Assembly: GCA_018710845.1 (NCBI GenBank)
Contig: DVJB01000039.1
Span: 1 to 64,000, forward strand
Reading direction: 5' to 3'
DNA from: Candidatus Onthomonas avicola
Lineage (GTDB): Bacteria > Bacillota > Clostridia > Oscillospirales > Oscillospiraceae
DNA: 64,000 bases
Both the position numbers and the translations under genes were made by a program. Below, piece after piece: positions 3,718 to 62,784 of this stretch (its first letter is position 1; each line of letters opens with the position of its first letter). The notes below the pieces were generated by a model. It had not been told where the DNA came from, searched no databases, and saw only the letters and a list, made by a program, of their open reading frames with translations.

Positions 3718-4365
3718 TTACTGTGCCAGCACCACCTTGACCGCGCTGGCGGCGACATCCGTCTCGCCCAGGACGATGTCGGTGATTTTGGCCACGTCCT
3801 CTGCCTCCAGCGTGCCGCTGGCGGTGGAGACGACGACGCTGACGCTGTTCTCCCCGATAAAGGCCACACAGTCGGAGTAGCCCTTTGCGGTGACCAGATT
3901 CTCAATCTGAGACTCAGCAAGGGTGGCGTTGGCCATGGCGGTGATACTCTCCGAGGCGGCATTCACCGCCGTCTCATCCGCATCGCCGCTCTCCACAGTG
4001 TCCTGCAAGATGGCGAGCGCCTCCGCGCGGGCCTCCTCCCGGTTCAGACGGGCCGTGGCAAAGTAGCCGCCGGCGGTCTCTTCCTCCTGTCCGGTGACGG
4101 CGGCCGCCTCAGCGCTCTCCTCCGACTCCCAGGTATCCAGGACGACATCCTCCGTCACCTCCTCCGCGCCGCTCGAGCCGTCGGAGTTGACCAGGGCCGC
4201 CTCACCCAGCGTCTTATTGGCCTCTGTGCTCTCCGAGGAGGTAGTGACCGCCTCGGCGCCGTTGACGGCGGACTCCTCCTGCCCGTAGGACCAGTTGAGG
4301 TAGACCGCCACACAGACAAAGAGCACAATGGCCGCTACCACCGCATTCCGCTTCCACAATTTCAT
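3718..4365 (-). CDS. spoIIIAH: Stage III sporulation protein AH
   Basis: N-terminal TM then LNRE-EARAEALAILQDTVESG...ITAMANATLAESQIENLVTAKGYSDCVAFI; last gene of the spoIIIA cluster. Confidence 0.92.
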   Translation of the reverse strand: MKLWKRNAVVAAIVLFVCVAVYLNWSYGQEESAVNGAEAVTTSSESTEANKTLGEAALVNSDGSSGAEEVTEDVVLDTWESEESAEAAAVTGQEEETAGGYFATARLNREEARAEALAILQDTVESGDADETAVNAASESITAMANATLAESQIENLVTAKGYSDCVAFIGENSVSVVVSTASGTLEAEDVAKITDIVLGETDVAASAVKVVLAQ

Positions 4366-4874
4366 TCCTGACTGCCTCCTGTCCTTTCACAGATGGATAT
4401 TTGGTTTGCATTCAGTCCGGTGAGGGCCTGCACTGCCTGCAATACCTGCAACTGGATTTGGGAATCGCCGCCGCCGTCGCAGACGACGAGCGCGCCGCGG
4501 TATTCCGGATACAGCTCCTGCACGCTCACCGCCTCCTCGCGGCTGGAGCCGGCGGAGACGACGACGGTCGCGCTCTCCTCTCCGTTCTGGTCGGTGGCCA
4601 AGATCTGGCGCGCGCTGCTGCGCAGCGTGAGGACAACCTCGGCCTGACCTACCCCTTCGATCTGGGAGAGCGTCTCTGCCAGGCGTCTCTCGAGCGCCTC
4701 CGTCTGAGCAGTCCAGTCCACGGTCTGCACCGCAGCCTCCTCCCCCGCCGTCTCCCCGCCGTCTCCGCCGGACGGCCAGAGCAGCAGGCCCAGGCCGACC
4801 GCCAGCACCAGCAGCACATATTGATAGCGTTTGAGCAGTTCCCCCAGCCGCTTGCCATCCCACGGAAGCTTCAA
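4362..4874 (-). CDS. spoIIIAG: Stage III sporulation protein AG
   Basis: LERRLAETLSQIEGVGQAEVVLTLRSS...YPEYRGALVVCDGGGDSQIQLQVLQAVQALTGL. Confidence 0.92.
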   Translation of the reverse strand: MKLPWDGKRLGELLKRYQYVLLVLAVGLGLLLWPSGGDGGETAGEEAAVQTVDWTAQTEALERRLAETLSQIEGVGQAEVVLTLRSSARQILATDQNGEESATVVVSAGSSREEAVSVQELYPEYRGALVVCDGGGDSQIQLQVLQAVQALTGLNANQISICERTGGSQE

Positions 4875-4935
4875 TGTCCCCCTCCTCTCCCCTGATGGAA
4901 AACGCCGCCGTGCCGGAGCGCGTATCCGGATCGCC

Positions 4936-5415
4936 TCAGCGCTCCTGATAGACGACCTGCTCCGGCTCCAGCCCCAAGTCCTCGCAAAATACCTGGGTGA
5001 GCGTCTCCCGCTCGCCCGGCGTCAGGTCACCGGTGACAGTGACCTGCGCCGGCACGGGGGCATCCCCCGACCAGTCCCAGGTCACCTCCGCCCGGCAGTC
5101 GAGCGCAAGCTCGGCCGTCTTGTCCTGAATATATGCGTCCGTGCCCTGTGCTATGATGGATTCGGTGAGCTGCTCCTGGGTCTCCACAAGGGCCTGGCCG
5201 GTCTCTTCCAGCTCGGCAGTATAGCCGGCCAAAATATCCCGCAGCGCCCCGTAGTCAAAGCCCAGCACCGGCCGGACCACCGCCAGAAAGAGCAGCAGTC
5301 CACCCAGCAGCCTGCCCACCGAGCGGACCGGTCCGTCCGGCATCATCGCCAGCGCCACCGCCGTGAGCAATGAGGCCGCCAGCACGCCCAGCAGCCAGTC
5401 GCGCAGCACCTCCAT
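4936..5415 (-). CDS. spoIIIAF: Stage III sporulation protein AF
   Basis: 159 aa, two N-terminal TMs, position between AE and AG. Confidence 0.85.
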   Translation of the reverse strand: MEVLRDWLLGVLAASLLTAVALAMMPDGPVRSVGRLLGGLLLFLAVVRPVLGFDYGALRDILAGYTAELEETGQALVETQEQLTESIIAQGTDAYIQDKTAELALDCRAEVTWDWSGDAPVPAQVTVTGDLTPGERETLTQVFCEDLGLEPEQVVYQER

Positions 5416-5416
5416 C

Positions 5417-6511
5417 TCAGCTCACCGCCACCGCGACGGTGGTGATGATGGCGATCAGGGCCAACAGGGCACAGGCGCCCACCATGCCCAGCATCAGCCC
5501 GAAGGCCCCGCCGATGTCTCCGATCAGGCCGGACAGGCGGCTCTGGGTCATGGCCGCCGTGAGGACGGCGGAGATCCGATACATTAAATACTGCACCCCC
5601 AACTGTAAAAACGGTACCAGGCAGAAGGCGAGCACCGCCAACGTGCCAAAGATCCCGATCGCGTTGCGCAGAATCCCCGCTCCAGCGAGCACCGACTCCG
5701 TCGCGTCGGAGAGGATCCCCCCCACCACCGGCACCATGCCGGAGATGGCAAACCGGGCCAGCTTGACCGCCGCGCGGTCCGCCGTCCCCGCGATCACGCC
5801 GCTGAGGCTGAGATAGGCGGTGAAAATCAGCAGGACCCACGTCAGCACGGTCTGGACTACCCAGCGGACAAACGCGGCGAGCGAGCGAAGGCCATCGTTG
5901 TCCGCGGCGACCGCCCCGGCACAGGCGGCTACATAGAGGTAGACCAGCGGGATAAGCACGCTCTGGATCAGGGACAGCAGGAGATTGGCGGCAAAGAGCG
6001 TCACCATCTGCCGGGCCGCCGCACCGGTCACCGACCCGCCGGCCGCCGCTGCCGCCGTCATGACCGGGATGAGCACACGGGTGAAGCCGGTCAGCTGTAT
6101 GACCGTCTCCCGCCCCAGCGACAGAAGGGAGTGGACATCCCCCACCGAGGCCGCCGTCACCGCCAGCACGCCCACCAGCTGTACCATCTGCGCCGCGCGC
6201 GGGGCGGCGCTCTCGCACAGCGCCTGCGCCAGGGAACAGAAGAGCGCAATGACCAAAATCAGTCCGGCACTCCGGGTTGCCTGGGCAACGATCTCCCGCA
6301 GGCGCTCCAGCGCACCGGAGAAGACGGAGGCAAGGCCGGACTCCAGATCAATCTCCGGGCTGAGCGGGATCTCCAGCACGTCCTCCGCCTGCTGCTCGAC
6401 GGCGGTGGTGTCTACGCTGTCCCAGACCTGCTCCTGTACCTCCGCCGCCGCCCGTGCCGGCAGCGCCAGCAGGGCCAGACACAACCCGGCCAGCAGCAGC
6501 CCCCGCCTCAC
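5417..6511 (-). CDS. spoIIIAE: Stage III sporulation protein AE
   Basis: Multi-TM protein, SGMVPVVGGILSDATESVLAGAGILRNAIG; start set at GTG 6511 overlapping the spoIIIAD stop, since the longer ORF reads through AD in another frame. Confidence 0.9.
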   Translation of the reverse strand: MRRGLLLAGLCLALLALPARAAAEVQEQVWDSVDTTAVEQQAEDVLEIPLSPEIDLESGLASVFSGALERLREIVAQATRSAGLILVIALFCSLAQALCESAAPRAAQMVQLVGVLAVTAASVGDVHSLLSLGRETVIQLTGFTRVLIPVMTAAAAAGGSVTGAAARQMVTLFAANLLLSLIQSVLIPLVYLYVAACAGAVAADNDGLRSLAAFVRWVVQTVLTWVLLIFTAYLSLSGVIAGTADRAAVKLARFAISGMVPVVGGILSDATESVLAGAGILRNAIGIFGTLAVLAFCLVPFLQLGVQYLMYRISAVLTAAMTQSRLSGLIGDIGGAFGLMLGMVGACALLALIAIITTVAVAVS

Positions 6512-6900
6512 AGCAGCTCCTCCAGCAGCTCGAGCACGGCGCGCAGCAGCGGCGTGGCCACCACCAGCGCGGCAAGGCTCCCCCCCAGTTCGAGCAGCAG
6601 GGCGGCGCTGGACATTCCACCGTCCCGGCACAGCTGCGCAGCCAGGCGAACGAGGATGGCGATGCCCACCGTCCGGATGAGAGGGCTGAGCAACTCGTCC
6701 GTCAGCCCGGCGAGCTGGGCCAGCTCCTGCAACAGGGCAACTGCCTGCCCTAGGGCCTCCCGGCTGCGGTACAGGAGCAGCCCCGCCGTGACGATGGCCA
6801 GCACCAGCGCCAGCTCCGGCGTCTGCCGCCGGAGGGTGAGCGCGCACAGCGTGCCCGCCACGGCGATGGCGGCCAGCTGCCAGACAGCCGGACCGGTCAC
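6508..6900 (-). CDS. spoIIIAD: Stage III sporulation protein AD
   Basis: 130 aa membrane protein, order AC-AD-AE. Confidence 0.88.
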   Translation of the reverse strand: MTGPAVWQLAAIAVAGTLCALTLRRQTPELALVLAIVTAGLLLYRSREALGQAVALLQELAQLAGLTDELLSPLIRTVGIAILVRLAAQLCRDGGMSSAALLLELGGSLAALVVATPLLRAVLELLEELL

Positions 6901-7091
6901 AGCCCAAAGAGGTCCTCGACCAGCTGGAACAGGTCGCTGATCTGTTGGACCACCATCATCAGCACCACTACCAGGCCGGCAAGGGTGACCATGGTGGCCT
7001 GCTCCTCCCGCCCGGACCGGGCCAGCACCTGATTCAAAACAGAGACTAAGATTCCCACCGCGGCAATGCGGAAGATCAGATCGACATCCAT
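6897..7091 (-). CDS. spoIIIAC: Stage III sporulation protein AC
   Basis: 64 aa, MDVDLIFRIAAVGILVSVLNQVLARSGREEQATMVTLAGLVVVL. Confidence 0.93.
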   Translation of the reverse strand: MDVDLIFRIAAVGILVSVLNQVLARSGREEQATMVTLAGLVVVLMMVVQQISDLFQLVEDLFGL

Positions 7092-7123
7092 TGAGGTACT
7101 CCTTTATCCTGTGTCCGCCATCC

Positions 7124-7639
7124 CTATCCGGGCATGATCAGCAGCACCAGCAGCAGTCCAACCGACAGTCCCAGAATCAACGAGAGCCGTCCCAGCCGGC
7201 GCTCCTCCTCCCGTGCGTCCTCCAGGCTGCCCTCCAGCGCGCGGCGCAGGCCGGAGAGCAGCCTGGCCTGTTCCTGTCCCTCATAGCGTCCCAGCACCGA
7301 CCCGACCCGCCGGAGCAGTGCGCGCTCTTCCTCCCGCAGGGGCAGGGTGCTCTCCCGCAACGCCTGGTCCCAAATCCGGGCAAAGGGGCGCTCGTTCAGA
7401 TGGTCAAGCCCGTCCAGACATCGGGCAAACAGCGGCGCGCAGCGGTCCTGCGCCTGTGCCAGCAGGGCCAGCAGGGCGGCGGTGTCCGTCTGACAGGCGT
7501 TCAGCTCCGCCGACATCCGGTCAATGGCGTGGACGGCGTCGGAAAGCGTCTGCCGCCGCTCCCGATACCAACTCCAACGGCGCCATCCCACCCAGCCGCA
7601 GGCGGCACAGACCATCAGCCCGCCGGCCAGGCGGATCAC
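7124..7639 (-). CDS. spoIIIAB: Stage III sporulation protein AB
   Basis: GTG start at 7639; GWxxWRRWSWYRERRQTLSDAVHAIDRMSAELN; two TMs. Confidence 0.88.
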   Translation of the reverse strand: MIRLAGGLMVCAACGWVGWRRWSWYRERRQTLSDAVHAIDRMSAELNACQTDTAALLALLAQAQDRCAPLFARCLDGLDHLNERPFARIWDQALRESTLPLREEERALLRRVGSVLGRYEGQEQARLLSGLRRALEGSLEDAREEERRLGRLSLILGLSVGLLLVLLIMPG

Positions 7640-8556
7640 AGCAGCTCCTCCACCCGGTAGCTTCGCCTGCCTCCCTCGCGGCGGATGGTCACCAACCTCC
7701 GGAAGACGCGCTGTTCCAGCAGTGGGCGGTAGACCTCCCGCCGCCGCAGCCCGTCCCAGTCCGTCCCGTGCGCGGTGGCGAGCAGGGCGGCGCCGCAGTT
7801 GGCCCCCTGGCAGAGCGCGGCGGTGTCCTCCGGGCGGGTGATCTCGTCCGCGGCGAGCACCTGCGGCGCCATGGAGCGCAGGAGGAGCAGCAGCCCCTCC
7901 CCCTTGGGACAGCCGTCCAGTACGTCCGCCAGCGGGCCGACGTCCAGCTGCGGCACGCCGCCGCGCAGAGCCGCCACCTCCCCGCGCTCGTCTGCCAGGC
8001 CAGTGCGCACGCCGCGCAGACCGAGCAGGCGGATGAGGTCGCGCAGGAGCGTGGTCTTCCCCTCGCCGGGCGGGGCGACGATCAGGGTGCTCTGGAACCT
8101 CCCCTCCACCAACAGCCTGGGCAGCAGGTCCTCTCCGATTCCGGTCACCGGGCAGGCGATGCGCAGGTTGAGCGAGGAGAGTGTGCGCACGGAGAGCACG
8201 TGCCCCTCCCGGAGCGTGACCGTCCCACACAGGCCGAGGCGGTGCCCCCCGGGCAGCGGCAGAAACCCGGCCGAGAGCTTGTCCGCCGCCCCCTGCAGCG
8301 AGGCGCGCGTGGCGATCTCCACCGTCTGACGCAGGTCCTCCGCGCTGATGGGCACACTCTGCCCGTCCCGTGTCAGACGCTCCTCTGCGCCGTCCCCACC
8401 GGAGACAAAGAGTCCCCGTCCGGCGCGCAGCCGTATCTCCTCCCAGCCCTCCTGGCGCCGCGGGTCCTGCGAGAGCAAAAAACGGCACAGGCTGCCGGGC
8501 AGGACCCGCACCGCCTCGCACACGGCACGGCGCCTCGCGGACATCTCTGCGGTCAT
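7636..8556 (-). CDS. spoIIIAA: Stage III sporulation protein AA (ATPase)
   Basis: Walker A VAPPGEGKTTLLRDLIR; IRLRAGRGLFV; start chosen at MTAEMSARRRAVCEAV. Confidence 0.93.
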   Translation of the reverse strand: MTAEMSARRRAVCEAVRVLPGSLCRFLLSQDPRRQEGWEEIRLRAGRGLFVSGGDGAEERLTRDGQSVPISAEDLRQTVEIATRASLQGAADKLSAGFLPLPGGHRLGLCGTVTLREGHVLSVRTLSSLNLRIACPVTGIGEDLLPRLLVEGRFQSTLIVAPPGEGKTTLLRDLIRLLGLRGVRTGLADERGEVAALRGGVPQLDVGPLADVLDGCPKGEGLLLLLRSMAPQVLAADEITRPEDTAALCQGANCGAALLATAHGTDWDGLRRREVYRPLLEQRVFRRLVTIRREGGRRSYRVEELL

Positions 8557-8627
8557 GACGCTCCACTCCCCTCTCTTCTCCGGGCCGCACATCAGTCCAA
8601 CCCGGGACTTGTCCTTCGGTTCGCTCC

Positions 8628-52889: not shown

Positions 52890-54122
52890 TCAGGGACTTA
52901 GCCCCACCTCGCGCCGCAGGAGGGAGAGCGGTGGAACTTGCCGCGGCAGCTGCATCCAGAAACGCATCTGCGGATGGCGCGGTTCCTCCAGCGGCTCGCC
53001 CTCCAGCGTCTGCATGGGCGGCACATCAAAGGCAAACGGCCGGCAGTCCGGGCCGACCAGCTCCACCTGATCCCCCGCGCGGAACTTATTGCGCAGCGAG
53101 AGCAGCGCCCGGCCGTCCGGTGTGCACTGCTCCACGACGGCACAGACCTGCCAGTCACGCAGATAGCGCGCGTCGTCGTAGTACTGTCCCGGCTGACCGA
53201 ACCAGAAGCCGGTGGAGTAGTGCCGGTGGCTCACCTTCTCCACCTCAGCCCGCCAGACCGGGTCGACCGGCCGCCCCGCGCCCACGTCGTCGAGTGCGTG
53301 GCGGTAGGCCCCGGTGACGATGGCGGCGTAATAGGCGCTCTTGGCCCGGCCCTCAATCTTGAGCGAGCTGAGCCCGGCATCACAGAGCTCAGGGATGTGG
53401 TCAATCATGCACATGTCCCGGCTGTTGAGGATATAGGTCCCCTTCTCGTCCTCGAAGACGGGGAAATACTCCCCCGGCCGCTTTTCCTCCATCAGATAGT
53501 ACTGGTAGCGGCAGGGCTGGGCGCAGGCGCCGCGGCTGGCGTCCCGCCCGGTCATGTAGTTGGACAGCAGGCAGCGGCCGGAATAGCTCACACACATCGC
53601 CCCGTGTACAAATGCCTCCAGCTCCAGGCTTGCCGGTGTCTTGGCGCGGATCTCCGCGACCTCCTCCAGACTCAGCTCCCGGGCGAGGATGACGCGGCTG
53701 GCTCCCAGGTCATGCCAGGCGCGTGCGGTCTCATAATTGGCCACGCTGGCCTGGGTGGAGATATGCCGCTTCACATGGGGCGCATACCGCCCGGCGAGGG
53801 TAAATGCCCCGAGATCGGCGACAATGACGGCGTCCACACCGGCGTCGTCAAGCACCTCCAGCCAGGCGGGCAGGGAGGCGACCTCTCCGTTGCGCGGCAT
53901 GGTATTCACCGTCACATGGCAGGCCACGCCGCGCGCCTTGCAGCGCCGCACCGCCTCGTAGAGCTCCTGCGTGTCGAAATTGCCGGCAAAGGCGCGCATG
54001 CCAAACGCCGACCCCGCCAGGTAGACGGCGTCGGCGCCATAGGCGATGGCCATATTCAGCCGTTCCATGTCCCCCGCCGGGGCCAGCAGCTCCGGCAGGG
54101 GACGTCTGATCGGATCACTCAT
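52890..54122 (-). CDS. Peptidase U32 family protein
   Basis: LPELLAPAGDMERLNMAIAYGADAVYLAGSAFGMRAFAGNF; CVSYSGRCLLSNYMTGRDASRGACAQPCRY. Confidence 0.93.
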   Translation of the reverse strand: MSDPIRRPLPELLAPAGDMERLNMAIAYGADAVYLAGSAFGMRAFAGNFDTQELYEAVRRCKARGVACHVTVNTMPRNGEVASLPAWLEVLDDAGVDAVIVADLGAFTLAGRYAPHVKRHISTQASVANYETARAWHDLGASRVILARELSLEEVAEIRAKTPASLELEAFVHGAMCVSYSGRCLLSNYMTGRDASRGACAQPCRYQYYLMEEKRPGEYFPVFEDEKGTYILNSRDMCMIDHIPELCDAGLSSLKIEGRAKSAYYAAIVTGAYRHALDDVGAGRPVDPVWRAEVEKVSHRHYSTGFWFGQPGQYYDDARYLRDWQVCAVVEQCTPDGRALLSLRNKFRAGDQVELVGPDCRPFAFDVPPMQTLEGEPLEEPRHPQMRFWMQLPRQVPPLSLLRREVGLSP

Positions 54123-55602
54123 CGGCGGTTTCATCCTCTTCGGCAGCCACATCCTGGCCGCTCTCCACAAGGTCGCGGAACTGCATGAACTCCTCACCGG
54201 TGGAGAAGAAGTGCGTCTGTCCGTCGTTGCCCAGGATAAAGTAGTAATAGGTGGTCGAATTGGGGTACAGCGCGGCCTGGATGGCCTCCATGCCCGGATT
54301 GGAGATGGGGCCTTCAGGTAGGCCGGGATAGAGATAGGTGTTATACGGACTGTCAATCGCCAGATCCTCCGCCGTCAGCTCTTCCTTGCGCTCCTCCAGG
54401 ATAAACTGGATGGTTGAATCCATCTGGAGATAGCCGTCCGTCTCCCCGTCCGTCTCCAGGCGGTTATAGATGACGGAGGCGATATCGCGCTGGTCGCTGC
54501 CGTCCGTCTCCTCCTCAATGATGGAGGCGACAATCATGATCTCGTGCTGGGTATAGCCCAGGCGCTCGGCGCGGGTGCGCATCTCGGAATCGAACTTCTG
54601 CGAGTAATTGTAGAGCATGCGCGAGAGGGCGACATGGGCGTCCCCGTCCACGTAGAACTCATAGGTGTCCGGGAAGAGATAGCCCTCCATCCAGTACGGG
54701 TCGTCCTGCTCCAGGCCCTGGAGGAAGGAGTAGTCGTACTCCTCCGTCATGGCGGCCTCTTCCAGCTCCTCCACCGTGCAGACCCCCTGCGTCTCAAGCA
54801 GCGCAAAGATCTCCTCGACGGTGTAGCCCTCCGGAATGGTGACGGTGACGGTCTCCCGCGCGGACGAGCTGGCGCTGATATTATTCAGCAGCGCGCTGTA
54901 GTCCATGGTGGTGTTCAGTTCGTAGGTGCCGCTGGAGATGGCCTCCGCCTTTCCGGTGAAGGCTGCAAAAATCTGGAAAAGGACGGGGTAGTCGATCAGG
55001 CCCTCCTCATGCAGGCTCTGGGCCACGTCCTCTACGCTCTCCCCCGCCTCGATCACCACGCTGGCGGTGTGCTCCGTCTTATTGAGCGCGAGCAGGTCAT
55101 TGGCCCATCGCCAGCCCAGCGTGGCCATCACAAAGGCGATCGCCAGCACCGACACCACGTAGAGCATGGCCACCAGCACCGTCACGCCCATGCTGCTCCG
55201 GCGGCGCCTTCTGGGCGCGCGGCGCGCGGCGCGCGGCGGATCCTCCGGCGGTGGAGCTGATCCATCACGGTAGCTGTCATATGCCTCGTAGGGGCCGTCC
55301 TCCGCCATTTCCGGCTCTGGCCAATCCTCTTCCTGCTCAGCCATGGGCCAGCCTTCCCCCTCAGCCGGCTCATCCGGCGCTGTCTGCCCGTCTTCCGTCT
55401 CCCAGGTCAACTCAGACGGCTCAGACGACGGCTCGGGCGGGCTGTCCGGGTCAGGCACGGGCTCCTCCGACGGCCCCCCGGCCTCCCGCACGCCGTCGCG
55501 GATGGATTCCGCCTCCCGGCCGTAGTGGGTCCAGTCGATCTCGTCGTAGCCGGAACGGCTGCCGGCGTTCTCTTCAGGATATTGCCTCTTCTCATCGGGC
55601 AT
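54115..55602 (-). CDS. mltG: Endolytic transglycosylase MltG with long acidic N-terminal extension
   Basis: TVTIPEGYTVEEIFALLE, EGYLFPDTYEF, ASIIEEETDGSDQRDIASVIYNRL, PYNTYLYPGLPEGPISNPGMEAIQAAL. Confidence 0.94.
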   Translation of the reverse strand: MPDEKRQYPEENAGSRSGYDEIDWTHYGREAESIRDGVREAGGPSEEPVPDPDSPPEPSSEPSELTWETEDGQTAPDEPAEGEGWPMAEQEEDWPEPEMAEDGPYEAYDSYRDGSAPPPEDPPRAARRAPRRRRRSSMGVTVLVAMLYVVSVLAIAFVMATLGWRWANDLLALNKTEHTASVVIEAGESVEDVAQSLHEEGLIDYPVLFQIFAAFTGKAEAISSGTYELNTTMDYSALLNNISASSSARETVTVTIPEGYTVEEIFALLETQGVCTVEELEEAAMTEEYDYSFLQGLEQDDPYWMEGYLFPDTYEFYVDGDAHVALSRMLYNYSQKFDSEMRTRAERLGYTQHEIMIVASIIEEETDGSDQRDIASVIYNRLETDGETDGYLQMDSTIQFILEERKEELTAEDLAIDSPYNTYLYPGLPEGPISNPGMEAIQAALYPNSTTYYYFILGNDGQTHFFSTGEEFMQFRDLVESGQDVAAEEDETADE

Positions 55603-55660
55603 GGCGGTACCTCCTCCGGCCCCGTCCGCTGCGGCGGGGCATGGTCTTATCCGGGCGCCG

Positions 55661-56260
55661 TCAGTCTGTCCTCCGCCGCCCGGCGACGCCCGTGAGCGTA
55701 CGCCGTTCGGTGAGGACCAGGCCGACTGCCCGGTCGTGTTCCTCGCGGGGAACCTGGTCTTGCAGCAGCGCCTCCCGGCACAGGCCGACGGTCTGTCCGG
55801 AATAGCGCGCGAGAAAACGGTCATAAAATCCGCCGCCGCGGCCGAGCCGCCAGCCCTGTGCGTCATAGCAGACGGCGGGGATCAGGGCCAGTTCGGGCCA
55901 CGCGGCATCCACCAGAGGGCAGTCCTCCGACGGCTCGAGCATGCCAAAGCGGTGACGGATCAGGGACGACTCGCCCAGATAGCGTCGCAGCTCCAGCACC
56001 CCGCCTGACCGGCAGCGGGGCAGGCAGAGCTCCTTGCCCTGCGCGGTGAGCAGCGGGAGCAGGCGCCCGGTCTCCGGTTCCTCCCCCATGCCATAAAAGA
56101 GCAGCACACGCCGCGCACGCGCCAGGGCGTCAAGGGCGAGGAAACGGCGCAGCAGCGCCTCGTCGCTCTGCGCGCGCGCCTGCGGCGTCATCGCCCGCTC
56201 CAGCGCCCGGATCCTGCGGCGCAGAGCGGCCTTCTCCTCAGTCCTGATAGTGGACGGCAC
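55661..56260 (-). CDS. 5-formyltetrahydrofolate cyclo-ligase
   Basis: EKAALRRRIRALERAM; LALIPAVCYDAQGWRLGRGGGFYDRFL; GTG start. Confidence 0.9.
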   Translation of the reverse strand: MPSTIRTEEKAALRRRIRALERAMTPQARAQSDEALLRRFLALDALARARRVLLFYGMGEEPETGRLLPLLTAQGKELCLPRCRSGGVLELRRYLGESSLIRHRFGMLEPSEDCPLVDAAWPELALIPAVCYDAQGWRLGRGGGFYDRFLARYSGQTVGLCREALLQDQVPREEHDRAVGLVLTERRTLTGVAGRRRTD

Positions 56261-56783
56261 GGCGCACCTGCTCGGCGGCCTCTTCCCCGCGCAGCACGCG
56301 CACCAGCTCCAGGCCAAAGTCAAAGGAGGAGCCAGCCGCCTGGCCGGTGATGATGCGCCCGTCACGCACGACGCGGCGGCGGCCGGTGACCACGGCGGAG
56401 AGCATGTCCTCCTCCATGCCGGGGTAGACGGTGGCGTGCCGCCGGTCCAGCAGGCCGAGACGGGCCAAAATGGTGGGCGCAGCGCAGATGGCGGCGAGCC
56501 AGTGCCCCTGCTCTTCCACCTTCTGAATCAGGGTGATGGCGGGAATGCTGGCAGAGATCTCCTCCACGCCGCCCAGCCCGCCGGGCAGGACCAGCATCTC
56601 CATGTCGTCAAACGAGACCTCATCGAGCGTCAGGTCGGCCTGCACCGTCACATTCTGACCGGAGACGACGCTTTTGCCCGCCACACCGACGAGCGCGACC
56701 TTCACGCCGGCCCGCCGCAACAGGTCCGCCGGCGTCAGCGCTTCGACCGTCTCAAAACCGTTGCCCAATAAGATGTAAACCAT
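56238..56783 (-). CDS. DJ-1/PfpI family protein
   Basis: VYILLGNGFETVEALTPADLLRRAGV, LVLPGGLGGVEEI, LAAICAAPTILARLGLL. Confidence 0.93.
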   Translation of the reverse strand: MVYILLGNGFETVEALTPADLLRRAGVKVALVGVAGKSVVSGQNVTVQADLTLDEVSFDDMEMLVLPGGLGGVEEISASIPAITLIQKVEEQGHWLAAICAAPTILARLGLLDRRHATVYPGMEEDMLSAVVTGRRRVVRDGRIITGQAAGSSFDFGLELVRVLRGEEAAEQVRRAVHYQD

Positions 56784-56864
56784 AATACCGTTCTCCCCTC
56801 AATTTTTTCAAAAAATGAAATGAACCCGTCTCTCTCTTCTCTGGTCTGTCTCTCCGGGTCTCTA

Positions 56865-57533
56865 TCATCCAAGCGCCCTGGATACGGCGCTCCAGATGTC
56901 CTGTTCGATCTCCTCCACTCCGCGCGGCGCACCGCCGGCGGCACAGGAGATGACGGTCCAGCCGAGCACATTCGCAGCCGACAGCGCGCACCGGCGGCAC
57001 TCGGCCAGGTAAGCCCCGTCCCGTTCGTGGATATCCGCCTGAGTGTGCGTCCGCTCCTCGCGGCTGCGCAGCAGCGAGAGGGCCAGCTCGGTCGGCATAT
57101 CCAGATAGCACACCAGATCCGGCCTTGGCAGGCCGAGACGGCCGTACTCATACTCATACAGCCAGCGGAAGAAGTCCTCCCGCTCCTGCGGCGGGACCTT
57201 GGCCCCCTGGTGGACGGCGTTGGAGGTGGTATACCGGTCGGCAAGGATCAGCCCACCGTGCTCATAGTCACGCCCCCAGTCCTGCCGGTAGGAGGCATAG
57301 CGGTCCACCGCGTAAAAGGAGGACGCGGCATAGGCATTCACGTCCCCCGGCTGCGCGCCGAAGGCCCCGGAGAGATAGAGGCGGATGAGCGCGGAGGACT
57401 CCTCCTGATAGCGGGGGAACACCAGCCGGTGAAAGCGCCGGCCCTCTCGCTCCAGCCGCCGGCAGAGCAGGGCAAACTGGGTGGATTTCCCCGACCCATC
57501 GGTGCCCTCGAGGACAATCAATTTTCCCGGCAT
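56865..57533 (-). CDS. tmk: Thymidylate kinase-like protein
   Basis: GKLIVLEGTDGSGKSTQFALLCRRLE, FPRYQEESSALIRLYLSG, LILADRYTTSNAVHQGAK. Confidence 0.9.
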   Translation of the reverse strand: MPGKLIVLEGTDGSGKSTQFALLCRRLEREGRRFHRLVFPRYQEESSALIRLYLSGAFGAQPGDVNAYAASSFYAVDRYASYRQDWGRDYEHGGLILADRYTTSNAVHQGAKVPPQEREDFFRWLYEYEYGRLGLPRPDLVCYLDMPTELALSLLRSREERTHTQADIHERDGAYLAECRRCALSAANVLGWTVISCAAGGAPRGVEEIEQDIWSAVSRALG

Positions 57534-58261
57534 ATGCCTCTCCCCTCTTCCATCCAGACCTGGGCCAAAAACAGCGGCAGACGGTACAGCCGCCCCAGAC
57601 GCGACGGCTGACGCAGCGCGCGCCAGAGCCACTCCAACCCCCAGCGCTGCCAGAGCGCCGGGGCGCGTCCCACCCGGCCAGAGAGCACGTCCAACGTTCC
57701 GCCCAGGCCGAGCAGCAGCCGGGCGCCCGTGCGCGCCCCATAACGGTCCATCCACTCCTCCTGCCGGGGCGCCCCCAGGCAGACGAAGACAAGGTCGGCG
57801 CGGGCGCGGGCGATCTCATCTGCGGCGCGGGCCGGATCGGCAAAATAGCCGTCCGCCGCGCCCGCCAGCACAAGGCCGGGGCAGTCGCGCAGCAGCCTGC
57901 GCCCCGCCTCCTGCGCCACGCCGGGGCGGGCGCCGAGGAGATAAATCCGCTTTCCGCGCTCCCCCGCCCGGCGCGCCAGCGCCGCGGCATAGTCCACGCC
58001 CGGCACCCGGTCGGGCAGCTGCGCCCCTCTCAGGCGCGCGGCGAGCAGTACACCCACACCGTCGGCCAGCGACAGCTCCGCCCGATTCAGCAGCGCGCAC
58101 AGCTCCGGGCGTCGCGCCGCCTGGCTCAGCAGCTCGGGATTAGGCGTGATCACCCGGTGTGTCCCCGGCCGCTCGAGCAGCTCCAGGCCGCGCGCGAGCG
58201 CCTCATCCATTGTAACGGCGTCCACCCGGACGCCCAGAATCTTCCATCCTGCTTGATCCAT
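57518..58261 (-). CDS. WecG/TagA/CpsF family glycosyltransferase
   Basis: HRVITPNPELLSQA, LSLADGVGVLLAARLRG, RVPGVDYAAAL, RIYLLGARPG, VCLGAPRQEEWM. Confidence 0.94.
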   Translation of the reverse strand: MDQAGWKILGVRVDAVTMDEALARGLELLERPGTHRVITPNPELLSQAARRPELCALLNRAELSLADGVGVLLAARLRGAQLPDRVPGVDYAAALARRAGERGKRIYLLGARPGVAQEAGRRLLRDCPGLVLAGAADGYFADPARAADEIARARADLVFVCLGAPRQEEWMDRYGARTGARLLLGLGGTLDVLSGRVGRAPALWQRWGLEWLWRALRQPSRLGRLYRLPLFLAQVWMEEGRGICREN

Positions 58262-58485
58262 GGCACGGTCACACTCCCGGGAAAAGATGCTGTCCCCGGC
58301 CGTCGCGCAACCGTTTCCAGCTTCATCATATCATACCCTGGCGGGAAAGTCCATAAAACATTCTTACGAAACCACGTCGGCGGGCAGCAGGATTTTACAT
58401 GGATCGCCAAAAGCAGGTTCGCCTTGGAAACAATCGCGGCATCAGAGGCGCCAGACGGGAGTCCTTCCATGTCCTGAGCTGCATC

Positions 58486-58514
58486 TTGCTTTTTTCGTCG
58501 GAAGATGGTATAGT
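58486..58514 (+). promoter_or_regulatory. Sigma-A-like promoter for the TagH-like ATPase
   Basis: TTGCTT, 17-bp spacer, TATAGT. Confidence 0.6.
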
Positions 58515-58552
58515 GGTAGTACTTATCTCATGCCGTTACAGAAGGAATCATT

Positions 58553-59317
58553 ATGACTGAATGTAAGCAGAATCGAGCCGATCCGGCCATCATCGCCAAA
58601 GACGTCCATCTGAGCTACCGTAGCATTGTCCCCGTCTCCATGCGCGCGCAGCAGTCTGAGACCCCCTCTATCCGCCGCAAAGGGCGCGTGGAGCACTTCG
58701 AGGCGCTGCATGGCATCTCCTTTGAGATCCAGCGCGGGGAGATCGTCGGGCTGGTGGGCCGCAATGGCTCGGGCAAGAGCACGCTGCTACGGGTACTGGC
58801 CGGGATCTTTGAGCCGGACTCCGGCTCGGTTGACCTGCACGGGTGCACTGTCTCCCTGCTGGCCCTCGGTGTCGGCTTTCTGAAGGACCTCTCCGGCCGG
58901 GAGAATATCTATCTGTCCGGTATGCTGCTCGGCTTCACCAAACAGGAGATCGACGAGCAGATTGAGGAGATCATCGCCTTCTCCGAGCTGGGTTCCTTTA
59001 TCGAAAAGCCGGTGCGCACCTATTCCAGCGGCATGGCCTCCAAGCTGGGCTTCGCCATCACCGCCATCTTGAAGACAGATATCATCCTGGTCGACGAGGT
59101 GCTGTCGGTGGGCGACGCGAAGTTCAAGAAGAAGAGCTTTAACAAGATGATGGAGCTGATCTCGGAAAAGACGCGGACGGTGGTCATCGTCTCCCACAGC
59201 ACGGAAACCATCCAGCAACTGTGCAACACGGTGATCTGGCTGCATGACGGCGATATCCGAATGACCGGCCCCACTGAGCAGGTCATGCCGCAGTATGTCA
59301 AATTTATGGATTCCTGA
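58553..59317 (+). CDS. ABC ATPase of polysaccharide/teichoic acid export type (TagH/Wzt-like)
   Basis: FEALHGISFEIQRGEIVGLVGRNGSGKSTLLRVLAGIFEPDSG, LLALGVGFLKDLSGRENIYLSGMLLG, YSSGMASKLGFAI. Confidence 0.92.
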   Translation: MTECKQNRADPAIIAKDVHLSYRSIVPVSMRAQQSETPSIRRKGRVEHFEALHGISFEIQRGEIVGLVGRNGSGKSTLLRVLAGIFEPDSGSVDLHGCTVSLLALGVGFLKDLSGRENIYLSGMLLGFTKQEIDEQIEEIIAFSELGSFIEKPVRTYSSGMASKLGFAITAILKTDIILVDEVLSVGDAKFKKKSFNKMMELISEKTRTVVIVSHSTETIQQLCNTVIWLHDGDIRMTGPTEQVMPQYVKFMDS

Positions 59318-59443: not shown

Positions 59444-61426
59444 ATGGATTTGTCCGCAGTGAGCGAAGGATTGGACCGGATTGGGGCCATATTGAGCGAA
59501 TCGCTGTCCGGGCTGCTGGCGCAGGAGGGACTTGCCGTCCTGCTGGAGCAGGTATTGGGCACAGTGATGCGCTTTCTGCTGCCCGTGCTGGCGCTGCTGG
59601 TGGTCATCCGCTGCGCGCGCAGCCTGCTGCAGGGCAGGCTGGAGTCGGAGACCTGGGGCTATCTGAGCGACGCCGGCGGGCAGACCATGCCGCTGGAGCA
59701 CTGGGAGGTCCTGCTCGGCCGTTCGCGCCGGTGCGACATCGTCCTGCCGGACGCCACCGTCTCGCGCAACCACGCGGCCATGATTCGCAACGACAAGGGG
59801 CAGTGGACGCTCTATCCGCTGCGCAGCAAGAACGGCGTGCTGCTCAACGGGTACCCCGTCACGCAGGCGGCCCCGCTCACCGGCGGAGACGTCATCGCCC
59901 TCGGGGAGACGGAGCTGGCCTTCCGCCCCATCTCTGCCGAGGAGGAGCAGCGCCAGGCCCAGTCGCGCACGCGGCCGGGCAAGGTCTTCTCCCCCGGTAT
60001 GACGCTCTTTTTGCTCACGCTGTTTCAGGCCATTTTGTGCCTGCAGCTGGGAGGTGTGGTCGAACCGGAGTACCAGCGGGCGGTCTACGTCTCCTTCGGC
60101 GTGCTCGCCGGGCTGATGTGGCTGGTGTACGTCATCTACCGCGTGCTCCGGCGGACCGGCTTTGAGATCGAGACGCTCGCCTTTTTCCTCACCTCACTCT
60201 GCCTGACGGTGACCTCCATCTCCGAGCCGCACAGCCTCTACCGCCAGCTGCTGACGGTCGTGCTCGGGCTGATCGCCTTCTTTGTCCTCTCCATCCTGCT
60301 GCGCGACCTGGAGCTGTCCAAGAAGCTGCGCTGGCCGGCGGCGATCGGCGCGGTCGCCCTGCTGGCCTTCAACGTACTGCTCGGCGAGGTGCTCTTCGGC
60401 GCGCGCAACTGGGTGAGCCTCGGGCCGGTCTCCTTCCAGCCGTCTGAGCTGGTGAAGGTGATCTTCATCCTGGTCGGCTCGACGACGCTGGACCGGATGT
60501 TCGCCCGGCGAAATCTGATCTTCACGCTGGTCTTCTCCGCCTACTGCGTGGGCTGCCTGGCGCTGATGAGTGATTTCGGCACGGCGCTGATCTTTTTCGT
60601 CGCCTTCCTGGCCATCGCCTTCCTGCGCTCGGGGGACTTGCCGTCGGTGGCCTTTATGACGGCGGCGGCGGTGTTTGCCGGGTTTCTGGTGCTCCAGTAC
60701 CGGCCCTATATCGCCAACCGTTTCTCCGTCTATCTCCACGTCTGGGAAGACCCGTCCGGGCTGGGCTACCAGCAGACGCGCACCCTCTCCGCCCTCGCCA
60801 GCGGCGGTCTGTTCGGCCAGGGGCTGGGCAACGGGTGGCTGAAGAACATCGGCGCGGCCAACACCGACCTGGTCTTCGGCGTGCTGGCCGAGGAGCTGGG
60901 GCTGATCATCGCCGTGCTGGCCGTAGTGGTGATTTTGCTGCTGGCCCTCTTCACCGTCAAGTCCGCGGCCACCGCGCGCTCATCCTTCTATGTAATCGCC
61001 GCCTGCGCGACGGCGATGATCTTCCTCGTGCAGACGATGCTCAACGTCTTCGGCTCGACCGACCTGTTGCCGCTGACCGGCGTGACCTTCCCCTTTGTCT
61101 CCTGCGGCGGGTCGAGTATGCTCGCCTGCTGGTGTCTGCTGGCCTATATCAAGGCCTCGGACACCCGGCAGAACGCCGGCATCGCCGTCCGCCTGCCCAG
61201 CCGAAGGAAAAAAAACGCCGCGGCGCCCGAGCCGGAACGCGCCCCCCGGTTCAGCCGCCGCGCGCGGCCCCACGCCGCAAGCGATCTGGACGCCACGCAG
61301 CCCTTCCGCCCGCCGGTGGCGACGCCGCTGGCGGATGCTCAGGACGACTTTACGGCCGACCTCTCCATCCACACCGACGCGGACGACTGGCAGTCCTATT
61401 TCCCCTGGGAGGAGGATGACTCGTGA
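59444..61426 (+). CDS. FHA domain fused to an FtsW/RodA/SpoVE-family polymerase
   Basis: N-terminal TM; FHA motifs LLGRSRRCDIVLPDATVSRNHAAMI...RSKNGVLLNG; SEDS core VSLGPVSFQPSELVKV, FGTALIFF, LLPLTGVTFPFVSCGGSSML. Confidence 0.94.
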   Translation: MDLSAVSEGLDRIGAILSESLSGLLAQEGLAVLLEQVLGTVMRFLLPVLALLVVIRCARSLLQGRLESETWGYLSDAGGQTMPLEHWEVLLGRSRRCDIVLPDATVSRNHAAMIRNDKGQWTLYPLRSKNGVLLNGYPVTQAAPLTGGDVIALGETELAFRPISAEEEQRQAQSRTRPGKVFSPGMTLFLLTLFQAILCLQLGGVVEPEYQRAVYVSFGVLAGLMWLVYVIYRVLRRTGFEIETLAFFLTSLCLTVTSISEPHSLYRQLLTVVLGLIAFFVLSILLRDLELSKKLRWPAAIGAVALLAFNVLLGEVLFGARNWVSLGPVSFQPSELVKVIFILVGSTTLDRMFARRNLIFTLVFSAYCVGCLALMSDFGTALIFFVAFLAIAFLRSGDLPSVAFMTAAAVFAGFLVLQYRPYIANRFSVYLHVWEDPSGLGYQQTRTLSALASGGLFGQGLGNGWLKNIGAANTDLVFGVLAEELGLIIAVLAVVVILLLALFTVKSAATARSSFYVIAACATAMIFLVQTMLNVFGSTDLLPLTGVTFPFVSCGGSSMLACWCLLAYIKASDTRQNAGIAVRLPSRRKKNAAAPEPERAPRFSRRARPHAASDLDATQPFRPPVATPLADAQDDFTADLSIHTDADDWQSYFPWEEDDS

Positions 61427-62784
61427 AAAAGCTCAGCGGCCGGACGTGGTTTGTCCTGCTGTTTACCATCCTGCTGGCAGCCGGAACGCTCATCCTGCTC
61501 GGGATGTATGTGGTGCACGGGCGCGACTGGGCCTCCTTCTCCGCCAACCGGCACCTGTATACCGACGGGCGGATCGCCACCGGCTCGATCACCGACCGCA
61601 ACGGCCTGCTCCTCTTTGACGGGGAGACAGGAGACTATGCGCAGGACGGGGCGATCCGCACCGCCACGCTGCACGCGGTGGGCGATGAGTACGGCAACAT
61701 CATCACCGGGGCCAAGCTCCTCTTCTCCGACCGGATGGGGAGTTATAACCCGATCACCGGCGTGAGCGAGACGGGCAACACCGTCAGCCTCACGATTGAC
61801 GCCGAGCTCTGCCAGACCGCCTATGAGGCCCTCGCCGGGCGCAGCGGCGCGGTGGGCGTGTACAACTACGAGACGGGGGAAATTCTCTGCATGGTCTCCT
61901 CCCCCTCCTTCGACCCCTACGACTCGGAGGAGGTGCTGGCAGGGGTCAACGCCGGAGAGAGCCGATATGACGGGGTCTACCTCAACCACTTTCTCTCCGC
62001 CACCTTCACCCCCGGCTCCATCTTCAAGGTCGTCACCGCGGCGGCCGCGATTGAGCGGCTGGGGGCGCTGGAGGACTTCACCTACACCTGCACCGGCTCG
62101 ATGACGGTGGCGGGCAACCAGATCACCTGCCCCAGCGCCCACGGCTCGCTCGACCTCGCCAGCGCGCTGGCCAACTCCTGCAACGGGGCGTTCGCCGAGC
62201 TGGCGCTGGAGCTGGGCGGCGATGTGCTCTACGGCTATGCCGAGGCGGCCGGCCTGTTGGAGGGCGTGACGGTGGACAGTCTGACCTCCGCCGCCGGCCG
62301 GTTTGAGATCGCCCCCGACAACTCCTCTGAGCTGGCGTGGTCTGGCGTGGGCCAGTCCACCAACCTGGTCAACCCCTGCGCCGAACTGGTGCTGATGGGC
62401 TGTATCGCCGGGGAGGGCAGCGCGAGTGAGCCGACGCTGCTCCACTCCGTCACCAGCTCCATCGGTCTGCCGGTCAAGGGCGTCAGCGCAGGCACCGCCT
62501 CCATCGGCTGGAGTGAGGAGACCTGCCAGGCGCTCAAGGCCCTGATGCGAAACAACGTGCTCACCCACTATGGGCAGGAGCCGTTCGGCGACCTCGCTGT
62601 CTGCGCGAAATCCGGCACCGCTGAGGTGGGCAGCGGACTGGAGCCGCACGCCTGGTTCGTCGGGTTCCTCGACGACCCCTCCAACCCCTACGCCTTTGTC
62701 GTCCTGGTGGAAAACGGCGGCTCGGGCAGTACGGTGGCCGGCAGCATCGCCGCCACCGTCCTGAACGAGCTGTGCGGAGACTAA
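61423..62784 (+). CDS. Penicillin-binding protein, PbpA-like transpeptidase
   Basis: SxxK in TPGSIFKV, SxN in ANSCNGAF, KSGTAEV; single N-terminal TM; ATGACTCGTGA overlap with the SEDS gene. Confidence 0.94.
   Translation: MKKLSGRTWFVLLFTILLAAGTLILLGMYVVHGRDWASFSANRHLYTDGRIATGSITDRNGLLLFDGETGDYAQDGAIRTATLHAVGDEYGNIITGAKLLFSDRMGSYNPITGVSETGNTVSLTIDAELCQTAYEALAGRSGAVGVYNYETGEILCMVSSPSFDPYDSEEVLAGVNAGESRYDGVYLNHFLSATFTPGSIFKVVTAAAAIERLGALEDFTYTCTGSMTVAGNQITCPSAHGSLDLASALANSCNGAFAELALELGGDVLYGYAEAAGLLEGVTVDSLTSAAGRFEIAPDNSSELAWSGVGQSTNLVNPCAELVLMGCIAGEGSASEPTLLHSVTSSIGLPVKGVSAGTASIGWSEETCQALKALMRNNVLTHYGQEPFGDLAVCAKSGTAEVGSGLEPHAWFVGFLDDPSNPYAFVVLVENGGSGSTVAGSIAATVLNELCGD

Follow-up and report, generated by a model that had tools for sequence, protein, structure and literature searches.

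An FHA domain fused in frame to a RodA-type SEDS polymerase, beside a PbpA-type transpeptidase, in Candidatus Onthomonas avicola

Background

In Actinobacteria, FHA proteins, a RodA polymerase and a PbpA transpeptidase are encoded together with Ser/Thr kinases in the cluster fhaA-fhaB-pstP-rodA-pbpA-pknA-pknB. The known mycobacterial links between PASTA Ser/Thr kinases and the enzymes that polymerise the wall use separate adaptor proteins: FhaA binds PknB-phosphorylated CwlM and the pseudokinase domain of MurJ (PMC6180346), and the interaction of FipA (FhaB) with PknA requires its FHA domain (PMC3989709). In sporulating Firmicutes, SEDS/penicillin-binding protein (PBP) pairs encoded in the dcw cluster probably serve sporulation, and FHA domains go unmentioned in a synteny-based survey of this group (PMC10693644). 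This report concerns a stretch of 64,000 nucleotides ("the window", positions 1 to 64,000 of contig DVJB01000039.1, assembly GCA_018710845.1) from Candidatus Onthomonas avicola, a gut-type spore former of the Oscillospirales, in which an FHA domain and a SEDS polymerase are encoded as one protein and the overlapping gene encodes a class B transpeptidase.

The domains, residues, operon, orthology and distribution of this FHA-SEDS/PBP module are directly observed. The reading that we hold to be moderately probable is that the protein represents an in-frame joining of FhaB to RodA that works with PbpA, its FHA domain bringing a phosphothreonine signal from a PASTA kinase to the polymerase.

One protein combines an FHA domain with a SEDS core

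A first-pass annotation of this DNA had described a 660-residue protein with an N-terminal transmembrane segment, an FHA domain and a complete SEDS core, and Pfam, alignment and a structural model all agree with it. The Pfam FHA match (PF00498) covers residues 90-154, and the motifs within it are G92 R93 S94, S107 R108 N109 H110, S128 K129 N130 G131 and N135 G136; the window protein combines the profile and fold of the family with the full set of phosphothreonine contacts, GR, SRxH and S-x-N-G. The FTSW_RODA_SPOVE match (PF01098; residues 261-569, E 7.5e-58) spans positions 34-347 of the 356 in the profile. Of the 92 SEDS proteins aligned, all share the catalytic residue D475 as well as E335 and E483, and 91 have W323. 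The core carries about 40-50 additional N-terminal residues in the form of extra membrane helices, and R56, R59 and R65 lie at or after the hydrophobic stretch at residues 39-57.

In the AlphaFold2 model (mean predicted local distance difference test score 76.8, predicted TM-score 0.77) an N-terminal helix is followed by the FHA sandwich (residues 72-162) and then by a linker helix that precedes the SEDS bundle; the tail is disordered from about residue 593. The fold of the core is like that of FtsW and RodA, which ranked first when the model was compared with the PDB by Foldseek. The FHA domain of FhaA ranked next, at a TM-score of 0.88-0.90 normalised to the target (0.88 for 3poa). Scores against NCBIfam equivalogs fell below the cut-offs: 53.4 bits against 125 for FhaB (NF049868), and 169.8 against 336.7, 218.9 against 337.5 and 138.5 against 448.8 bits for TIGR02210, TIGR02614 and TIGR02615, the RodA, FtsW and SpoVE equivalogs. 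The FHA part is best described, from its sequence, as FhaB-like rather than as a formal FhaB. Since the same single-ORF (open reading frame) fusion recurs in 44 inspected loci from independent genomes, it is not an assembly error.

The overlapping gene had been described as encoding a PBP with a minimal N-terminal pedestal, and this too holds. The Pfam Transpeptidase match covers residues 142-447 of 453 (E 9.5e-34) and the motifs S199-I-F-K (SxxK), S252-C-N (SxN) and K396-S-G-T (KSGT) are intact, their catalytic Ser, Lys and Asn being invariant among the module PBPs compared. Only 198 residues precede the catalytic Ser, whereas both remaining class B PBPs of this genome have 399-410 there. Because actinobacterial PbpA likewise has only 218-232 residues ahead of this Ser, the short pedestal is a family trait, and it accords with a PbpA type, as does the grouping with actinobacterial PbpA described below.

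Table 1. Coordinates in the window of the fused gene, its parts and the partner gene
Feature	Position	Strand	Basis
FhaB-RodA fusion (FHA-SEDS peptidoglycan polymerase), 660 aa	59444..61426	+	single intact ORF, ATG start
N-terminal segment of the fusion protein with one membrane helix, aa 1-63	59444..59632	+	AlphaFold2 helix 28-63; hydrophobic aa 39-57
FHA domain, aa 72-162	59657..59929	+	Pfam FHA E 1.3e-17; AlphaFold2 beta-sandwich
SEDS polymerase core, aa 184-575, catalytic D475	59993..61168	+	Pfam, alignment, tree, AlphaFold2 model
Candidate kinase/FHA site DATQPF, within the disordered tail at the C-terminus	61289..61306	+	pattern search and comparison with relatives
PbpA-type class B transpeptidase, 453 aa	61423..62784	+	ORF starting at GTG and overlapping the polymerase gene by 4 nt

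Origin of the fusion

Many other Clostridia encode the three parts as separate genes, arranged in the same order. In the split clostridial loci (L015-L033), an FHA gene of 141-183 aa with a hydrophobic stretch at its start ends between 23 nt past the SEDS start and 84 nt before it; the two genes are a few nucleotides apart, often in the same frame with a single stop codon between them. The PBP gene overlaps or closely follows the SEDS gene where the contig extends that far. At one such locus, in Monoglobus pectinilyticus (L121), the annotation reads FHA domain-containing protein, FtsW/RodA/SpoVE family protein and penicillin-binding transpeptidase. The fused protein corresponds to these transmembrane-FHA and SEDS genes joined in frame, which explains its N-terminal membrane helix. 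In a third arrangement, found in a sublineage (L085-L097) of family f5 of the window's order, a separate protein of 242-278 aa with two tandem FHA domains lies beside the SEDS/PBP pair.

The proposed link to the actinobacterial FHA/rodA/pbpA module is strengthened by two gene trees and by the transmembrane-plus-FHA build of the N-terminal part, which resembles the separate upstream protein. In the SEDS tree, the fused, tandem-split and split copies together with actinobacterial RodA are separated from 12 canonical FtsW, SpoVE and RodA proteins with support of 100/100; the window's SEDS groups with RodA of Nocardia, Actinomyces, Tsukamurella and Nonomuraea, and not with canonical RodA or FtsW. 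In the PBP tree, the module PBPs and actinobacterial PbpA are separated from 7 canonical PBPs at 100/96. The stretch before the second transmembrane helix of the SEDS is 88-159 residues long in this clade versus 47-88 in the 12 canonical proteins. The polymerase and transpeptidase are classified from sequence as members of the actinobacterial pkn-cluster RodA/PbpA clade, a claim of membership that implies no sister relation to Actinobacteria. The gene row in Actinomyces oris reads DUF3662-FHA, FHA, PP2C, FtsW/RodA, PBP2, kinase, PASTA kinase. Tsukamurella has the same row minus a listed PP2C (its annotation is incomplete), and the Nocardia and Nonomuraea cluster members, recovered by homology, were found together.

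Fused and tandem-FHA split copies fall together in a single clade (support 100 or 100/100). The three trees disagree on the position of the tandem-FHA copies in it: one nests them within the fusions, and the others place them alongside. Since a constraint that places all fusions in a single clade is not rejected by the approximately unbiased (AU) test (p 0.17), the fusion appears to have arisen once or at most a few times. For the tandem-FHA form, both fission of a fusion and an older split state are compatible with the same test. The copies from family f6, which belongs to another order, nest in the SEDS trees (L006-L010, set against L005, L074 and L077) among copies of f3 and of f1, the window's own family, and their PBPs fall among copies from the window's order. 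These gene trees suggest that the FHA-SEDS/PBP pair may have reached f6 by horizontal transfer.

Distribution of fused and split forms

Distribution was followed in a class-wide sample and in 394 sampled genomes of the window's order; the counts are our own tallies from the result tables. The survey for FHA-SEDS fusions that the first-pass annotation had called for shows that it is no one-off: the order yields full-length fusions in 92/394 genomes, a single partial copy, and a further 13 copies that are split and have a duplicated FHA. In the class-wide sample, the protein can be aligned over its whole length with no intervening stop codon in families f1, f3 and f5 of the order and in f6, where all 5 sampled genomes carry the fusion. 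In the other Clostridia of that sample the alignment crosses a stop codon, FHA and SEDS being adjacent genes. Within f1, the fusion is present in 32/43 sampled genomes. A single FHA match is found in 45 of the 55 fusion genomes of f1 and f3, and 8 of the 11 fusion-free genomes of f1 have no FHA domain whatsoever. One genome of the window's genus (G539) has no detectable FHA-SEDS copy yet three FHA matches, which could reflect either gene loss or a gap in the assembly.

The genome itself (2.39 Mb, listed as 100% complete) contains three SEDS genes: one located in a dcw-type cluster and placed with SpoVE in the tree, a RodA and the fusion. Sequence inspection and the PBP tree identify four transpeptidase genes, a class A-type, PBP2, the dcw PBP and the module PBP; the dcw PBP has PASTA-like repeats at its C-terminus and groups with SpoVD. 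The FHA domain of the fusion is the sole FHA match in the genome. Its one PASTA kinase gene, directly downstream of a PP2C gene, is on another contig than the module. The module's immediate neighbours form an envelope gene neighbourhood, with genes for an MltG-like transglycosylase, a TagA/TarA-like glycosyltransferase and a TagH-like ATPase (54115-59317). No TagG-like permease was noticed beside this export ATPase.

The FHA domain as a proposed reader of phosphothreonine

The residues of the window protein fit a working phosphothreonine reader, and binding is predicted. Conservation was scored over 44 fused proteins, which represent several of the order's families and a single family outside it: G92 is kept in 44, R93 and S107 in 41 each, R108 in 40, H110 in 42 and N135 in 39. 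The ratio of nonsynonymous to synonymous substitution (dN/dS) for the FHA domain is 0.35 and 0.39 versus two relatives, a sign of purifying selection.

In the proposed scheme, a membrane-anchored FhaB-type FHA protein would have been joined in frame to a RodA-type SEDS glycosyltransferase, and the overlapping PbpA-type transpeptidase would be its cognate crosslinker. With RodA/PBP2 and the SpoVE/SpoVD-like pair of the dcw cluster, this would give the genome three pairs of a SEDS protein and a class B PBP. The FHA domain would lie on the cytoplasmic face, next to the first helices of the polymerase, and would bind a phosphothreonine made by the PASTA kinase, either on the kinase itself or on a partner in wall synthesis. 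Binding would dock the polymerase and transpeptidase, or gate them, at the sites and times of kinase activity, with reversal by the PP2C phosphatase. Fusion would fix the stoichiometry and make the sensor inseparable from the enzyme; with a phosphorylation reader built into the wall enzyme, a kinase signal could thus act directly on the polymerase. By analogy with mycobacterial FhaA and FipA (PMC6180346, PMC3989709), such Ser/Thr kinase control is plausible; along with phosphothreonine binding, we infer from sequence and analogy the kinase, the partner, the direction of the effect and the stage of the cell cycle.

Several findings weigh against this scheme. The Asn of S-x-N-G is present in only 10/44 fused proteins, with Gly in its place in 18/44, and the Arg or Ser contact is lost in 3/44; phosphate binding may therefore be absent from some fusions. 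The FHA domain is less constrained than the SEDS core, for which dN/dS is 0.08 and 0.23. The module is missing from 11/43 sampled genomes of its own family and is therefore dispensable at the level of the lineage. PASTA kinases occur with or without the module, no kinase or PP2C gene was found in the examined flanks of the clostridial FHA-SEDS-PBP loci, and in the present genome the kinase and phosphatase are encoded away from the operon.

The incomplete conservation of contacts in some fusions and the lack of a kinase gene in the examined neighbourhood would suit a phosphate-independent FHA domain, one that serves the synthase structurally or in dimerisation and whose fusion preserves an old protein-protein contact. 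The FHA domain of GarA reportedly also makes phospho-independent interactions (Nott 2009, by title). However, each of R93, S107, R108 and H110 is retained by 91-95% of the fused proteins across families, and we regard this explanation as unlikely.

Possible kinase docking and the C-terminal tail

If the FHA domain does read phosphothreonine, its ligand could be the PASTA kinase rather than other proteins: docked by its phosphorylated activation loop, the kinase would then phosphorylate cytoplasmic parts of the polymerase (tail and loops). PknB is said to recruit GarA through activation-loop contacts (Villarino 2005, by title). The activation segment of the PASTA kinase contains Thr-Gln (KTLTQEAF), and the tail of the window protein has DATQPF, the only match to DATQxF in its genome. 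Related tails within the genus carry DATQAF (L054) or other acidic-Thr-hydrophobic sites (L057, L058); over the own-genus tails such sites number 10, versus 3.2 in shuffles, and 0/2000 shuffles were as high, an enrichment to be read with the knowledge that the motif was defined after the sequences had been seen. Outside the genus, however, tails show no enrichment (2 sites versus 5.6 expected) and are short, with a median of 25.5 aa across all fused rows, so the tail cannot be a general target. Such docking is possible, though we do not consider it probable.

A tail phosphothreonine might instead fold onto the FHA domain of the same protein in the own-genus copies, an intramolecular switch that would release or mask a partner. 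This has a precedent in GarA, whose FHA domain binds its own phosphothreonine (PMC5448819), and although the tails have diverged, those of the window protein, L054, L057 and L058 all contain acidic-Thr-hydrophobic sites. The pattern is limited to the genus, though; L055 lacks such a site, and the tail is modelled as disordered. A switch of this kind seems quite unlikely. As a general intramolecular ligand, the motif was rejected outside the genus on the counts given above.

Co-occurrence with a PASTA kinase was considered as a test of kinase control and proved uninformative, since the kinase model matches 392/394 genomes of the order. The host genome also encodes two divergent kinase-like proteins, L052 (6144-8510, contig C8) and L053 (5603-7285, contig C10), one with C-terminal YD-like repeats (EYDASGNRTK) and the other ending in several hydrophobic segments.

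Sporulation

A role in the synthesis of cortex or polar septum had been proposed from nearby sporulation genes. The genome does encode SpoIVA, and the window contains a spoIIIA operon. However, this operon is about 51 kb from the module and a PdaB-like gene, at 36.5 kb of the window, about 22 kb away, the nearest genes being those for the envelope (MltG, TagA and TagH-like). The dcw SEDS and PBP group with SpoVE and SpoVD, and dcw pairs probably serve sporulation in Firmicutes (PMC10693644); the role therefore looks filled. SpoIVA is present in 351/394 genomes of the order, and within f1 in 11/11 genomes without the module and 31/32 with it; its co-occurrence carries no signal, and neither it nor the PASTA kinase separates genomes with the module from those without. 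The proposal is not supported by these comparisons, and a sporulation-specific synthase is very doubtful. The spoIIIA assignment refers to an eight-gene run at 3718-8592 that resembles this operon; SpoIIIAA and SpoIIIAE are recognised in it, both under the curated cut-off.

The favoured scheme, a kinase signal read by the FHA domain, can be extended so that the dcw pair serves sporulation while the FHA-SEDS/PbpA pair, gated by the PASTA kinase, builds wall during vegetative growth or septation, with self-switching by the tail Thr within the genus. This fuller combination is improbable as a whole.

Comparison with known systems

The locus bears on how PASTA Ser/Thr kinases reach the enzymes that polymerise the wall. 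Nature has here paired an FHA protein with a polymerase, FhaB-like with pkn-cluster RodA, and the product is a single polypeptide in which to ask whether phosphothreonine binding alters SEDS output. It also points to a clostridial SEDS/PBP class that was not singled out by the synteny-based survey of Firmicutes (PMC10693644). A literature search covering few subscription papers and preprints found no published FHA-FtsW/RodA fusion; the kind of module is already known, and the fusion is a new form of it.

With the actinobacterial cluster, the window shares RodA and PbpA of one clade, an FHA part of the small FhaB kind (about 155 aa in the actinobacterial copies) and rodA and pbpA genes that overlap or abut. 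Unlike that cluster, it has FHA and RodA as one protein, no fhaA, and its kinase and phosphatase elsewhere in the genome. The split clostridial operon of Monoglobus pectinilyticus has the same three parts as orthologues, in the same order and with the same tight spacing, but its FHA protein is separate. The tandem-FHA split form shares the SEDS and PBP clade of the fusions and differs in its separate two-domain protein. RodA-PBP2, FtsW-FtsI and SpoVE-SpoVD resemble the window's pair in catalytic residues and in the predicted enzymology of a SEDS protein with a class B PBP, whereas they have no FHA domain, a shorter SEDS N-terminus and mostly a much longer PBP N-terminal region. GarA and OdhI have a bacterial FHA domain of similar fold; in contrast to the fusion, they are soluble metabolic regulators with no enzyme attached.

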